Part shown: one piece after another, positions 3,920 through 50,532 of the stretch
How the letters are laid out: each line of letters starts with the position of its first letter
How positions within the stretch are numbered: position 1 is the stretch's first letter
Virus record (IMG/VR): IMGVR_UViG_3300033146_003306
Coordinates: 1 to 54,866 of that record
Length of the DNA: 54,866 nucleotides
Direction: 5' to 3' (one strand)
DNA from: a virus
The notes under the pieces: model-generated
The model's input: only the letters and a program-made list of their open reading frames with translations
Databases searched by the model: none
Told to the model about the DNA's origin: nothing
Program-made: the position numbers and the translations under genes

Positions 3920-5005
3920 TTATCTCCTTGGTTTTCTTCTTCCTTTTCTTTGATGGGAAACTTCTTTATGTGTAACGTCTTGGTTTTTTTCTGCTAAAGG
4001 CTGTCTTCTTCCTGGTCTTTCTTGTGTGTCTCCCCACGCAGGGTTATCGTCAATTTCTTCGTCTTGTATGTTACTATCTGTATCATTTATTGGTGGAGCA
4101 GGTATATCATCTTCTTTTTGCTCTGTCTTGTCGATCATTTTTTTTGCAAGCATTTGTTCCATTTCTTCGTATGTATAAATTAACGGTGTAGCTAATTTAT
4201 CAAACTGAACGCACTCAGAAATGCGAGGTGTAAAATCTGTTCCTTCCGGCCTTTTGTCAAACTTAATAACAGGAAATTCAAAATAACCTTTTGTATATAT
4301 ACCTCCTGTAGGAGTATTCCATACGCTATCGAATCTTAGCGTGTACCCTGCTTTTGGATGTGGCCACGGATATACAAAGTTATCTCCTACTTCTGTGTTC
4401 CTTGAACATGTTATGATATTTTTATGAAAAACTGCTCTTGAAACGTCATTTATAACTTCAAGCGCATCGCCTGACGTATCGTGATTATAAATATTTGCCC
4501 ACGTTCTCCATGTTGGCTTTAATGATTTTGCTTTTTCGTCTGCTTCTGGATCACCTTGCTTTCTTTTTTTATATTCCTCAAACATTCTCTGGCAATGAGG
4601 GCATTTTTCTCCAAATGCTTCTCTTAAACAAACTGCGTCCCCCGAGTCTCCGTCTGCGTATCTATGGAACGGTATTTCAAAAAAAGACATTGCGCTACCT
4701 TGCTTTAAATTTCTTTTTTTTGCATATATCTGGCCCGCTTCCCTTTGCTCTTGTGTTGGAGGTGCATGAAGAAGTTTTTCAATCCACGGTTCTGACACAA
4801 TAAAAGGGATTATATCAATTCTGTTTTCCTTTGCATGGCCGAGTGGTATCCATTCTGTTACTTCTATTTCTGCCGCTTCAAAGTCAAACCCTCTTTTTGT
4901 CCCTGCTTCACTTTCTGTGCTTGCTGTTTTTTCTAAACCCATGTCAGAAACAGTTTCCACCATGTCACAAAAAGCATTTTCAAGCATTGCTAACTGATCA
5001 TTCAT
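3920..5005 (-). CDS. single-stranded DNA-binding protein, T4 gp32-like
   Basis: 361 residues. A zinc site His114-X11-Cys126-X8-Cys135-X2-Cys138 matches the spacing type of T4 gp32 (His-X12-Cys-X9-Cys-X2-Cys), embedded in a core rich in aromatic residues. The C-terminal region (about residues 295-330) is acidic, as in SSBs that recruit partners, but is followed by a very basic tail ending KGRRKPRR. The protein would coat ssDNA during replication and recombination. It heads the SSB / 134-aa / RecA / endonuclease VII run. The match rests on motif spacing, composition and neighbours. Confidence 0.8.
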   Translation of the reverse strand: MNDQLAMLENAFCDMVETVSDMGLEKTASTESEAGTKRGFDFEAAEIEVTEWIPLGHAKENRIDIIPFIVSEPWIEKLLHAPPTQEQREAGQIYAKKRNLKQGSAMSFFEIPFHRYADGDSGDAVCLREAFGEKCPHCQRMFEEYKKRKQGDPEADEKAKSLKPTWRTWANIYNHDTSGDALEVINDVSRAVFHKNIITCSRNTEVGDNFVYPWPHPKAGYTLRFDSVWNTPTGGIYTKGYFEFPVIKFDKRPEGTDFTPRISECVQFDKLATPLIYTYEEMEQMLAKKMIDKTEQKEDDIPAPPINDTDSNIQDEEIDDNPAWGDTQERPGRRQPLAEKNQDVTHKEVSHQRKGRRKPRR

Positions 5006-5092
5006 TATTTATTTTCCTTTTTTATGTAATTTTAAATATTATTTATTTTACTTATAATAAAAAAACAAAAGACAAACCAAAATATTATTGAC

Positions 5093-5263
5093 TTAACTAT
5101 CTTTTTTGTCCTTGTCTTTTAACAAATCACCAAATAAATTAACGCTGGCTCTCGTTTTTCCTATGATACACGCATTATACGCCACAACGACCAGTACGCA
5201 TATCCATATTGGCAATGCTACGTAAAGCCCAAATAACTTTATAAAAACAGTAAATACCTCCAT
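5093..5263 (-). CDS. small single-pass membrane protein, 56 aa
   Basis: The ATG at 5263 has a GGAGAAG ribosome binding site and begins one base after the stop of the upstream gene, so it is preferred over an in-frame start 17 codons earlier. One hydrophobic helix spans residues about 5-31 (FTVFIKLFGLYVALPIWICV), followed by a charged tail ending LKDKDKKDS. There is no lipobox or cleavable signal. Function unknown; the position between DNA-metabolism genes gives no clear hint. A holin-like role cannot be excluded, but no lysis partner is adjacent. Confidence 0.6.
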   Translation of the reverse strand: MEVFTVFIKLFGLYVALPIWICVLVVVAYNACIIGKTRASVNLFGDLLKDKDKKDS

Positions 5264-5264
5264 T

Positions 5265-5879
5265 TTAAATTCTTCTCCTCTTTCTCTTTGTTTTGACTGT
5301 GGATGTGCTATCAATTGCTTTTTCTTCCGTTTTTTTTAATTTTTCCTGGTCTTCTGTTTCTACTTTTACGTCAGCAAGGACATCACTACTGATGTCATCA
5401 ATATCCAACACATGCCTTGATTCTGCTGATTCTGTTGACTCAAAATAATTTGATAATGCCAACGCAACAGCGTCTTTTATAAGCCATTTTTTATCCTCCA
5501 TTATCTTTTGCATACTCTCGTATAAATTAAGCTCGTTTTCTGCATGTATCAATGCATCAACAACAGAAATATAGTCGCTGTGCAACCTATAGTATACCTC
5601 TGCTTTTTTATCTGTGTATTTCGCTGTTTTTGGATCGCACAATGAAGGGTCTGACACGCAATCAAGCATTAATTGTGAGCGTGTTTGCTTTTTTAATTCA
5701 TGTAGTTGGTCAGTAATCTTCTGTAATTTTGCCCTTTCTTTATTATATTTAAAGCAAAGGTCGCCATTCAACTGTATTTCTGAATGAAGGTTATTGATGT
5801 CAATCAATCTATCCTTTGTGACATCAATGTCAGAGCATATGTCTACCGTGTTATATATCTTGTCTATTTTACTTTGCAT
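5265..5879 (-). CDS. coiled-coil protein, possible recombination mediator
   Basis: 204 residues. Two long helical, heptad-like stretches (about 25-75 and 90-140), then an acidic linker and a strongly basic end TKRKRRRI. The helical core with KKAEVYYRLHSDY and the location next to SSB and RecA-like genes recall UvsY-type mediators that load recombinase onto gp32-coated DNA. This is a guess from architecture and neighbourhood; no diagnostic motif is visible. The downstream membrane-protein start follows after one base. Confidence 0.5.
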   Translation of the reverse strand: MQSKIDKIYNTVDICSDIDVTKDRLIDINNLHSEIQLNGDLCFKYNKERAKLQKITDQLHELKKQTRSQLMLDCVSDPSLCDPKTAKYTDKKAEVYYRLHSDYISVVDALIHAENELNLYESMQKIMEDKKWLIKDAVALALSNYFESTESAESRHVLDIDDISSDVLADVKVETEDQEKLKKTEEKAIDSTSTVKTKRKRRRI

Positions 5880-12407: not shown

Positions 12408-14006
<1,599 letters not shown>

Positions 14007-18278: not shown

Positions 18279-18608
18279 TTATTTCACCTCCGGTTTTCCA
18301 TAAACTTTAACTATTTCTAATTGAAGGTCGGCAGATGCTTGTTTTTTTGATTCTATTGCTTGCATTAACGCCATTTGCAACCTTATTTTTTCTGGTATTT
18401 TTAATAAATACTTTAAGTTTCCCCCTACAGCTTTTACACATTCTTTTTTTGCGTGTTTCTGGTCTTTAATGCATTGCTTTAATAACGACAATCTATGATT
18501 CATCTGCTTTGAAGTAGAAGACAATAGTATTTTTATTTTTATTCTTGATGTCTGCTCTTTGCATCTTTTATATTTTTCTATTTGAGAAAAGCCTTTTATA
18601 TAGTCCAT
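18279..18608 (-). CDS. hypothetical helical protein, 109 aa, start inside a hairpin
   Basis: Basic, helical, with three cysteines (KRCKEQ, KQCIKDQ, KECVKA) spaced irregularly. No known domain. Its ribosome binding site AAAAGGA lies in the loop of a perfect 15-bp stem and its ATG lies in the 3' arm of the stem (see 18600-18640), so translation is probably controlled by RNA structure. It follows the methyltransferase gene. Confidence 0.6.
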   Translation of the reverse strand: MDYIKGFSQIEKYKRCKEQTSRIKIKILLSSTSKQMNHRLSLLKQCIKDQKHAKKECVKAVGGNLKYLLKIPEKIRLQMALMQAIESKKQASADLQLEIVKVYGKPEVK

Positions 18609-20396: not shown

Positions 20397-21221
20397 TTAT
20401 TTATCTCCTGTAAAAAATTCAAATTTAGGGGTTGTTCTCTTTGTAATTATATTGTTCCTTTTTGACTCACCAGTCTTTTTTACGATACTAAATAATTTTA
20501 ATCTGTCCGTGAACATTTCCCCGTATTTTTCTTTGATATTCGACATGCTCTTATTCGTAGTAAAAATGGTTTGTTTTGAAATATCAAGTATTCTTTCATC
20601 GAGGACAGAAAACAGTTTTGAAGCAAAGGCCGGGTGAGCAGATGCACTTCCTAAATCTTGTATTACCAATAAATCCGCATCATACAAATCTTCAAAATTC
20701 CACGCACCATACACATCATACGATTTGTACCTGTCAAATGCTGTTTGCTTTTCTATTTTTCTTGAAAACATATCAAGACACATTTGTTCTGTCACATATA
20801 CAATTTTTCTTTTTGCTCTACTTGTCGTCCCTTGTGCATATATGCCTTCAAAAAAATCCGGCGACTCTCTGTATCTTGTAGGAATATACTGAGAACAAAA
20901 ATAGTCTTTTGTGAGTTTTACAGACAAATATGTCTTTCCCGTTCCTGTTGTTCCCATGATTATGACATTCTGCCCCCTTAATCGGCTGTTTTCTGGACTT
21001 AAATCACAACAGGTATACATAAGTCTACCTGGAACTTTTAAGTCTTTAAAATCGCCTGTTTTTTGGAATATTGCTTTTGTACGTCTTGCCGCAACACAGA
21101 ATGCGAACTGCACTATCTCACTGTCTGATAAATCTTTTGGAACATCAGGCCACTCATAAAGATTTTTTTGTTCAGTGAACAACTGCTTGACTCTATAAGT
21201 GTAGTTTGATTCTGATAACAT
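20397..21221 (-). CDS. DnaC-like helicase-loader ATPase
   Basis: 274 residues. AAA+ features: Walker A GTTGTGKT (90-97), Walker B LLVIQDLG (184-191), sensor 1 TTNKS (about 222-226) and a sensor-2-like DRL near residue 240. This is the DnaC/IstB arrangement. It would load the DnaB-like helicase at the origin in the initiator gene just upstream. No transposase is adjacent, so an IstB role is unlikely. The start overlaps the end of the Cys-motif gene by 29 bases. Confidence 0.82.
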   Translation of the reverse strand: MLSESNYTYRVKQLFTEQKNLYEWPDVPKDLSDSEIVQFAFCVAARRTKAIFQKTGDFKDLKVPGRLMYTCCDLSPENSRLRGQNVIIMGTTGTGKTYLSVKLTKDYFCSQYIPTRYRESPDFFEGIYAQGTTSRAKRKIVYVTEQMCLDMFSRKIEKQTAFDRYKSYDVYGAWNFEDLYDADLLVIQDLGSASAHPAFASKLFSVLDERILDISKQTIFTTNKSMSNIKEKYGEMFTDRLKLFSIVKKTGESKRNNIITKRTTPKFEFFTGDK

Positions 21222-21642: not shown

Positions 21643-22767
21643 TTAATCTTTGAATATGTCGTTTATACTCTCATAATATATTCCATTAATTTCTTTTCCA
21701 ACACGAGGATCATCATGATTTACACTTCGTATTTCGTCAGCCTGAATACCTTTGTTTTGTAATTCTGTTTTTTGTTTTCTAAATTCATCAAAGCCAAATT
21801 GATTATTTATATTCTTATTATTGTTTTTTGCAAATACAAACGCTTTTAGTTTTGCTGAATGGTCTTCAAGATATCTTTTGTCATAATTAATATAATTTTT
21901 TAATAAGTACATATAAGCCTGTTTAAGCTGAATGCAGTCTTTTAAATTTTTTATGAAGCTTTGTTTGTTTACTTCTCCTGTTTTTATTTTATTATAAAAA
22001 TTAATTAATTTTTTATGATCTCTCGGTTCTACTTTTTCAGAGGGGTAAATATTTAATATTTCATTTTTGAAGTTCTCAGCTTCTTTTTTGAATGAACGGT
22101 TTGTTTTATTAGTTTTATTAGTTTGTTTATTTTTAAAATCATTTAATTGTATACTTTTATTTTTTAATGAAGATTGTGTTTGTTCTTCTATCACTAATCG
22201 TTCGGAATCATGTTTTAGAAACAGGTGGCTACGCCGTGAGGTTGATTTATCAACCGAAGGGGTTGTCACAGGAAGAGCGTTAGCGATTTTCTCTGTAAGT
22301 GAGCTTGATTTATCAAGTGAGCTTTCTTTTTCTTTTTCTTTTTTTTTTATTGTATTATTAACTGTATTATTAACTGTATTATTATACCTGGCGTTTTCGC
22401 CAGGAGGGTACTGGCGTTTTCGCCAGGAGGGTACTGGCGTTTTCGCCAGGAGGGTACTGGCGTTTTCGCCAGGGGGTGTCACGACCTTTAAAATTCTTTT
22501 TTTAATTTGTTTGGAACCCTCTTTGTAAATAATATATCTTTTTATATACCCCTTTGCTTCAAGAGAAGATATGATCCTTATGCATCGAGATGCAGAAATT
22601 CTAAAAAAAGAAGAGAAGTATTCATTTGTGGCAAAGCACCCATTTTCATTATCTAAACTTTCAACTTCAACAACAAACAACATCTCCATTTTTGTAAGGT
22701 TTTCGTCAAGCCAGCGACTTTTTTCTATCCATACTCCTTTAAAATCCCTTTCATATTTCTTTATCAT
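21643..22767 (-). CDS. replication initiator, O-like, with winged-helix N-terminus and internal origin
   Basis: 374 residues. The N-terminal 95 residues form a winged-helix-like domain (LTKMEMLFVVEVESLDN, FRISASRCIRIISSLEAKGYIKR) as in phage replication initiators. The middle is low-complexity and is encoded by iterons and AT-rich repeats. The C-terminal 150 residues are helical and probably contact the helicase or loader. The DnaC-like loader follows downstream. The ATG at 22767 has AGGAG close upstream (a GTG one codon earlier is possible). As with lambda O, the origin appears to lie within the gene. Confidence 0.75.
   Translation of the reverse strand: MIKKYERDFKGVWIEKSRWLDENLTKMEMLFVVEVESLDNENGCFATNEYFSSFFRISASRCIRIISSLEAKGYIKRYIIYKEGSKQIKKRILKVVTPPGENASTLLAKTPVPSWRKRQYPPGENARYNNTVNNTVNNTIKKKEKEKESSLDKSSSLTEKIANALPVTTPSVDKSTSRRSHLFLKHDSERLVIEEQTQSSLKNKSIQLNDFKNKQTNKTNKTNRSFKKEAENFKNEILNIYPSEKVEPRDHKKLINFYNKIKTGEVNKQSFIKNLKDCIQLKQAYMYLLKNYINYDKRYLEDHSAKLKAFVFAKNNNKNINNQFGFDEFRKQKTELQNKGIQADEIRSVNHDDPRVGKEINGIYYESINDIFKD
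22351..22387. repeat. three AT-rich 12-bp tandem repeats, candidate DNA-unwinding element
   Basis: TGTATTATTAAC occurs at 22351-22362 and 22363-22374, with a near copy TGTATTATTATAC at 22375-22387. They lie directly beside the iterons and next to a pyrimidine-rich tract (22324-22350). Three short AT-rich repeats next to initiator sites are the classical layout of an origin unwinding region. Confidence 0.7.
22388..22472. repeat. four 23-bp iterons, candidate replication origin
   Basis: Copies start at 22388, 22411, 22434 and 22457; the first three are identical over 23 bp and the fourth keeps the 16-bp core CTGGCGTTTTCGCCAG. Each core is an inverted repeat (CTGGCG / CGCCAG around TTTT), fitting a dimeric initiator. 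Because 23 is not a multiple of three, successive copies are translated in different frames, so the conserved entity is the DNA. Located inside the initiator gene. Confidence 0.85.
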
Positions 22768-22865
22768 CACACTCCTTTTATTTCCTCTTATAAATCCACT
22801 TTTTAGTCAACGATATATGCAAAATTTCCTTTATGTCTTTTTCTTTCATGTTTTAATACTCTTGA

Positions 22866-23716: not shown

Positions 23717-24676
23717 TTATAAACATATATCTAATTGTTTGATTAAGTTATCCGCTTCTTTGCAAGTTAAGTCTCCTGGGTCTTTTGGGGTATTGTCTGG
23801 ATTTCTTAGTGATCCATCGAGTTCATATATTTCAGGGGTTATTCCTGTAAGTACTTGTATTTCATCAAATGCCTTTTGAGAGGCCGCTTGACCTGCTGAG
23901 TCAGGATCAAGAATAAAAACGCACTTATTAAAATTAGAAACAATGAATTTAACCTGAGCAGGAGTAAATTTAATACCAGACAAACTGCCGGAACAAGTCG
24001 GAAACATCCATGCGTCAGGTTGCCCCTCAAAAAACAACGTTCGTTGATTTTTACGGTGTTTTATATTGTCAAAATTATATATAAAAAAATTGCCAGGTAG
24101 AAGACAATCTGACTTCTTACAGGCTATATATTTTGCTCTCATACCAGACTGTTTTGTATCAACTGAAATGTCCCTGCATGTATATGTCATTAATTTGTTA
24201 TTCAAGTAATAAGGAATAAAGATTTTGTTTTTTTGATAAAAAGGGTCTGTTTCATATCCGGTAGATTGCAACTTAAAAAAATGAACTAAACGATCAACGT
24301 CAAATCCACGTTGCTCAAGATAAATTTTATGATATTTCACTAACGGTCTTAAATTTAATTTTTCAATATTTACTTTTTCTACATTTGCTTCCCATCCTGA
24401 GAAGTTTTGAGATATAAAACCTGTTGAGTGTTCAGATATTATTTGCTTTGCATGATTAATATCTACCCCTAAAACACTCGACAGTGCTTTATTTACGTTG
24501 TGACCTCCTCACCTGAAACACACACATGAGTTTTGAGCATGATTAAAGCCCATATGCGAGCCGTCATTACCGTGGCAATATGGACAAGGTACGTTTGACC
24601 ATCCATGACGGTAATGACGGCCAGAATTTGATGTTTGAATGCGGTGTATGCTAAATATTTTTTCGAAGTCAATCAT
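23717..24676 (-). CDS. DNA primase (zinc ribbon + Toprim) with an in-frame TGA at a Cys position
   Basis: 320 codons from ATG 24676 (AGGAAAATTAAA upstream) to the TAA at 23717. N-terminal zinc ribbon: CPYCHGNDGSHMGFN, then CVCFR followed by TGA at 24509-24511 and GGH; the second metal pair is expected to be C-x-x-C (CFRC-GGH), so codon 56 stands exactly where the last cysteine should be. The frame continues openly to a Toprim domain with FFEGQPDAW (E-G...D) and LDPDSAG. It would make primers for the DnaE polymerase. Because TGA is a normal stop in neighbouring genes, this is either a nonsense change, a sequence error or a selenocysteine codon. If it terminates, only a 55-residue stub and an unstarted Toprim part remain. 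Confidence 0.75.
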
Positions 24677-50382: not shown

Positions 50383-50532
50383 TTATTCGGTTATCGGCAA
50401 ATCGTTATTATCTGTTATCGCCAGATCGTTATTATCAAGAATGTTTAAATTGGTATGTCTATGAAAAAACGGTCTATCAAACTGAACCCTTAGCACTCTG
50501 TATAAAAGTAACTCTAACATTTTACCATCCAT
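50383..50532 (-). CDS. small protein with tandem repeat, 49 aa
   Basis: ATG 50532 overlaps the TAA of the preceding gene (TAATG). It starts MDGKMLELLLYRVLRVQF and ends with a duplicated 10-residue unit LDNNDLAIT / TDNNDLPIT encoded by a DNA tandem repeat (50390-50438). Function unknown. A longer reading from 50568 is possible but lacks a better site. Confidence 0.5.
   Translation of the reverse strand: MDGKMLELLLYRVLRVQFDRPFFHRHTNLNILDNNDLAITDNNDLPITE

Follow-up and report, generated by a model that had tools for sequence, protein, structure and literature searches.

Can a block of tandem repeats inside the coding sequence of a phage initiator be the place where that phage begins to replicate? 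The question is raised by a 54,866-base virus record of IMG/VR, here called the window. Its minus strand carries a 375-aa ORF with a GTG start (21643..22770), identified as an initiator gene by matches to HTH_36, DnaD_N and phrog_19658, and four iterons and a group of AT-rich repeats all lie inside this ORF on its coding strand. An initial annotation had read the arrangement as a lambda-like origin. Judging from sequence comparisons, the segment of ~22320-22480 is very probably the intragenic replication origin of this phage, a reading supported by the placement of the initiator in a family, by a layout conserved in relatives, by covariation between a protein helix and the iterons, and by the anatomy of lambda.

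The iteron array occupies 22388..22477 (minus strand; TRF score 173; repeat family D1) and consists of four copies with a period of 23 bp and 98% matches. Each copy contains a 16-bp palindromic core, CTGGCG-AAAA-CGCCAG on the sense strand, which is identical in all four, so that the coordinates and description given initially were right. The first core (CTGGCGAAAACGCCAG, 22457..22472) is nearest the part encoding the winged helix, and the others follow at 22434..22449, 22411..22426 and 22388..22403, all on the minus strand. The exact core, TGGCGNNNNCGCCA, does not occur in the window outside the array; when up to two mismatches are allowed, the window holds 16 matches, compared with 4.8 expected and 9 in the largest shuffle. 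The three AT-rich 12-bp repeats noted earlier beside the iterons (TGTATTATTAAC, 2.8 copies at 100%, 22351-22384) are seen as three minus-strand AATAATACA boxes spanning 22351-22383. These putative unwinding-element boxes are located at 22375..22383, 22363..22371 and 22351..22359, with steps of 12 bp, and the AATACA of the first box begins 17 bp away from where the AAAA of the fourth core begins. An A-rich polypurine tract on the sense strand (22323..22348, minus) completes the order within the gene: the winged-helix part, the iterons directly after it, the boxes and the tract.

The four iterons are read as PPGENAS, TLLAKTP, VPSWRKRQ and PPGENAR. Three distinct readings result, the first and fourth copies being in one frame because three units of 23 bp make 69. 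Since identical DNA is translated into differing peptides, the protein sequence leaves the identity of the iterons unexplained, and their unit length and frame argue for constraint on DNA rather than on peptide. The same argument from a length not divisible by three had been extended to the whole locus; it holds for the iterons, but not for the 12-mers, which are a multiple of three and stay in frame (NNT). A codon test is therefore needed for DNA-level constraint on the boxes.

No DnaA box (TTWTNCACA) was found near the array, the nearest being at 18432 and 37642, and the count in the window is at chance level. A GC-skew minimum had been expected near 22.4 kb; it is absent, as cumulative skew declines nearly without reversal from one end of the window to the other, and GC skew therefore lends the origin reading no support. 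The window contains two other repeats, a perfect hexamer array (GGTTCT x 9.2, 13444-13498) and two copies of a 24-bp unit, GTTATCGCCAAATCGTTATTATCT, at 91% (50390-50436).

The family of the window initiator, as assigned from sequence profiles, is that of HTH_36-type phage initiators (PHROGs 19658/270) with intragenic iterons. In the Pfam profile scan HTH_36 (PF13730) matches at 8.1e-6, above the cut-off, and DnaD_N at 8e-4, below it; among PHROG profiles, phrog_19658 ("replication initiation protein") matches at 5e-14, phrog_270 at 8e-12 and phrog_678 weakly at 8e-4. The winged helix makes up the N-terminal 100 residues of the 375, the DNA-binding domain being assigned to residues 7-97 (22480..22752, minus) from an AlphaFold model and family alignment A5, with pLDDT block means above 90 for residues 21-90. 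The predicted recognition helix (residues 60-73; 22552..22593, minus), which includes S61 and R65, is placed by the same model and by the covariation described below. The C-terminal part (21643..22322, minus) is modelled at low confidence and is presumed to be the region contacting loader or helicase. Foldseek searches with the model returned generic winged-helix (MarR-like) structures and the N-domain of B. subtilis DnaD, none at E <= 0.001; by sequence, the full-length protein had no meaningful match among solved structures, and the family profile matched winged helices weakly, including chromosome replication initiation protein 2vn2. Close relatives of the initiator, the loader or the exact iteron DNA were not found in IMG/VR.

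A DnaC-like AAA+ helicase loader of 274 aa is encoded at 20397..21221 (minus; phrog_50, 4e-20; IstB_IS21, 1e-9). It had been described as following the initiator gene, and it does lie downstream, but at a distance of ~420 nt rather than adjacent. Among 10 relatives tested for the gene downstream of the initiator, three have a DnaC-like loader and four a DnaB-like helicase or primase-helicase. Iteron arrays can also be centromere-like, e.g., the proposed ParG-type site of Bacillus phage B83 (PMC6669507), and the repeats might be a partition or incompatibility site of a plasmid-like phage instead of an origin. However, the surrounding genes examined are the initiator, the DnaC-like loader, a primase-like gene and a helicase, and the array adjoins unwinding-type boxes within the initiator gene, so we consider a partition site extremely unlikely. 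The primase-like reading frame (23717-24676, minus), with TOPRIM and, by eye, a CHC2-like zinc-finger motif, contains one in-frame TGA at codon 56, at the expected fourth zinc-binding Cys (CPYC...CVCFR*GG); the codon could be recoded, a genuine lesion or an error in the sequence.

Distant relatives were gathered by profile searches of IMG/VR and a genome collection, yielding a non-redundant set of 131 complete initiator genes below 75% identity; these are non-independent samples, and shuffles and permutations remove phylogeny incompletely. Tandem repeats directly follow the winged helix in 92 of the 131 (TRF), compared with 1.6 in dinucleotide shuffles. In control stretches, repeats were found in 7 cases for the C-terminal stretch of the same genes, in none for the first 245 nt, and in 1 of 126 downstream genes. 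The period is 21-24 bp in 79 of the 92, and all three residues modulo 3 are represented.

Loci that had been retrieved with the box motif as the query were for that reason dropped from the box statistics, leaving 85 relatives. TAATACA is present in 63 of these and AATAATACA in 48, whereas shuffles predict 4.7 and 0.9, respectively. The distance from the start of the last iteron AAAA to the start of the first AATACA is exactly 17 bp in 49 of the 69 relatives with both, the window included, and successive boxes mostly follow at steps of 12 bp (n = 31) or 15 bp (n = 43). The polarity of the A-tract is nearly uniform, with 113 occurrences on the sense strand and a single one on the antisense strand. 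Among the named hosts of box-carrying relatives are Bacillota (Clostridium, lactobacilli, Enterococcus), Pseudomonadota (Pseudomonas, Burkholderia, Caballeronia, Paraglaciecola) and Bacteroidota (Saprospiraceae, Aquimarina, Maribacter). The window locus is an ordinary but complete member of a wide, unusually regular family that extends over several bacterial phyla.

Boxes are in frame in 153 of 162 cases, with Asn-Asn-Thr as the usual reading. Such a bias is what peptide constraint or shared descent would give, and since linker regions tolerate repeats, it could be taken to favor a neutral tandem expansion in a disordered protein linker, with no function as DNA. The codon test speaks otherwise. 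Among relatives above 50% GC, 30 of 34 [NS][NS]T triplets in the box region use ACA, whereas elsewhere in the same genes ACA is used at 15 of 168 Thr positions and AAT at 50 of 151 Asn positions. AT-rich codons are thus kept at the boxes in GC-rich phages, which shows that the box DNA itself is constrained and rules out a peptide-only account; an additional peptide constraint is possible. Neutral expansion is further at odds with a repeat unit whose length, in most relatives, cannot be divided by three, with the same placement in most of the 131 divergent genes, and with iteron arms that covary with the recognition helix, and it is scarcely conceivable as an explanation. In one relative (L008), AACAATACA boxes occur in different frames because their spacing is 16 bp.

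The box was also used as a blind probe of IMG/VR. The pattern AATAATACA-N(3-6)-AATAATACA alone gave at least 123 matches in at least 119 stretches; among the matches listed, 93 of 123 fall within genes encoding this winged-helix domain and share their strand, and many of the others are in Asn/Thr-rich low-complexity proteins or non-coding DNA. With about three-quarters of the blind matches listed falling in initiator genes, the box and the 17-bp spacing provide a simple DNA signature for phage origins in metagenomes. Literature searches for the box sequence yielded no relevant paper among the hits listed.

The limits of the family can be seen in several loci. In L252 (reverse complement, 4694-5491), one of the remaining blind matches, an initiator-like protein outside the family HMM has AATAATACAGATAATAATACA after short inverted repeats, which suggests that the box reaches beyond one initiator family. 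Prophages of Halomonas, Vreelandella and Salinicola (L501-L518) keep TTCGGAAAAC-type iterons, and in most of those read GGTTCA-like DNA replaces the AATACA box in the same 17-bp register; the box is therefore replaceable and not universal. Verrucomicrobiota MAGs (L472, L475-L479) encode stand-alone winged-helix proteins of ~120-140 aa from the same domain family, with neither a C-terminal part nor the box motif; they may be repressors or put the domain to another use. A contig labelled as a Thermoplasmatales archaeon MAG (L461) has an initiator with iterons and boxes together with a DnaB-like helicase, so that either the phage was misbinned or its host is an unexpected one.

If the initiator recognizes the iterons, its contact residues should vary with the iteron arms. 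Covariation was measured in 45 relatives with a clear AAAA-centred site, over 86 domain columns and with overall domain identity removed. The columns of window residues 65 and 61 are the best predictors of arm similarity (z 8.8 and 6.0; ranks 1 and 2), and 0 of 1000 permutations scored as high; the two residues are four apart, both in the predicted recognition helix. When the commonest arm group (TTCGG) was left out, residue 65 was still first but at a z of 3.3, and residue 61 fifth, so the effect is due partly, not solely, to that group. Of 14 cases with Glu at the position of residue 65, 12 have TTCG(G/A) arms and a 13th has CTCGG. Where the residue is Lys or Arg, the arms are GGCG or GGTG for the window, L044, L452 and L039, and of other kinds for the remaining four. 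L044 (Lys) and the window (Arg) have the TGGCG-AAAA-CGCCA core in common; the window iteron, earlier thought distinctive, is therefore not unique, and AAAA-centred palindromic iterons are common in the relatives. The covariation is evidence, drawn from aligned sequences and short of proof, that the initiator binds the iterons.

Palindromes of this kind invite another reading, in which their main role is to control expression of initiator and loader, either as an operator or through hairpins in the mRNA. Each core pairs perfectly over 6 bp around a loop of AAAA, the RNA of the stretch has a much better fold than shuffled sequences (z -6.8), and an initiator binding its own gene could have a dual role. 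The fold, however, is a trivial consequence of the palindromes, and an Rfam search of the stretch gave no match. AAAA-centred palindromes with at least 5/6 complementary arm positions were found in just 34 of 88 regions (3.8 in shuffles), and many other relatives keep direct repeats without a strong palindrome. Furthermore, the repeats are mid-gene, ~300 nt from the start codon and away from the promoter, and control of expression would account neither for the sense-strand polarity nor for the constant 17 bp between the repeats and the AATAATACA boxes. A chiefly regulatory role for the repeats is very unlikely.

For the preferred reading, an intragenic origin, we infer a course of binding, opening, loader recruitment and, with these, actual origin activity. 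The N-terminal winged helix of the initiator would bind the four palindromic iterons, with recognition-helix residues, S61 and R65 among them, reading the arms around the constant AAAA core. The assembled initiators, at a fixed 17 bp from the first AATAATACA box, would assist in opening the polypurine tract and the AT-rich boxes, and the C-terminal part and the DnaC-like loader would bring a host DnaB-type helicase onto the opened strand.

The window itself would add one more lambda-style origin, from a phage that lacks close relatives in the databases; the cross-phylum regularity is the interesting part and deserves direct testing. Tentatively, and with chances that we put a little below even, one grammar may govern a large, phylum-crossing class of intragenic phage origins: palindromic iterons whose arms vary to match the protein while the AAAA core stays constant, a fixed 17-bp step, and a constant AATAATACA unwinding box every 12-15 bp. 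The box would be sequence-specific and probably read single-stranded or during melting by initiator or loader, residues 61 and 65 would form a simple specificity code, and the lambda type would be a variant. The literature covered contains no description of such a cross-phylum grammar; key older reviews are outside that coverage, so a prior description is possible. The family offers a test bed for whether unwinding elements are sequence-specific or merely AT-rich, and for how initiator specificity shifts when the binding sites are inside the initiator's own gene.

Several known systems can be compared with the window. SPP1 has its oriL inside gene 38, with direct repeats, an AT-rich unwinding element and gp39 as the loader, and the system has been reconstituted in vitro (PMC6316719). 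As described, G38P/oriL resembles the window in layout; SPP1 differs in also having a second, distant origin, oriR. The unwinding region of B. subtilis oriC comprises DnaA-trios and a DnaD recognition element (PMC10201434); it likewise places short AT-rich step repeats beside initiator sites, and the DnaD fold is a related winged helix. In contrast, the window has no DnaA box near its array, and the family boxes are 9-mers at steps of 12-15 bp rather than trinucleotides, for which reasons a DnaA-trio reading of TAATAATAC was rejected.

Initiators of PHROGs 19658/270, from Pseudomonas phage Skulduggery, Lysinibacillus phage vB_LspM-01, Fusobacterium phage FNU4 and lactobacillus phages, share the domain of the window protein, whose match to them stops near residue 128. 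Like the window, this group has 22-24-bp repeats right after the domain, AATAATACA-type boxes and a loader or helicase downstream, whereas the window differs in its iteron arms and in its more uniform copies (98% matches).

Experiments have established both that lambda O binds its iterons and that the AT-rich tract has a role in unwinding (PMC7466680). The lambda record has four 18-bp iterons such as ATCCCTCAAAACGAGGGA in the middle of gene O, followed by ACACAAAAGACACTATTACAAAAGAAAAAAGAAAAG. Because a lambda O scan of IMG/VR gave near-identical copies, lambda-type phages were collected singly. The O/gp18 origins of lambda and its like (SE10, HK97, SPN3UB, HK225, PAJU2) resemble the window in lying mid-gene after an N-terminal DNA-binding domain, in palindromic repeats (ATCCCTCAAAACGAGGGA in lambda, GTGCCGAAAACGGCAC in PAJU2) centred on a sense-strand A-tract, and in an AT-rich, A/G-rich side downstream with a loader or helicase gene next; GAAAA-centred sites are also found in PAJU2, HK225, SPN3UB and a Mannheimia phage. 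The window polypurine tract can be likened to the A/G-rich side that the AT-rich region has in lambda, and the window loader, downstream as in the lambda type, was identified by the phrog_50 profile. The AT sides differ, with ACACAAAAGA...TATTACAAAAG in the lambda type and AATAATACA at 17 bp in the window. The designation "O-like" is apt for this architecture, but not for protein homology: the window initiator has no Phage_rep_O match in Pfam (E up to 1) and no lambda O-type model in NCBIfam (E up to 0.1), and hhalign of the window family profile against lambda O gave 47% over 33 columns, in the helix-turn-helix only, so membership in the lambda O protein family is unsupported. By analogy, it is well supported that the window locus works like ori-lambda, yet belongs to the HTH_36-type initiators.
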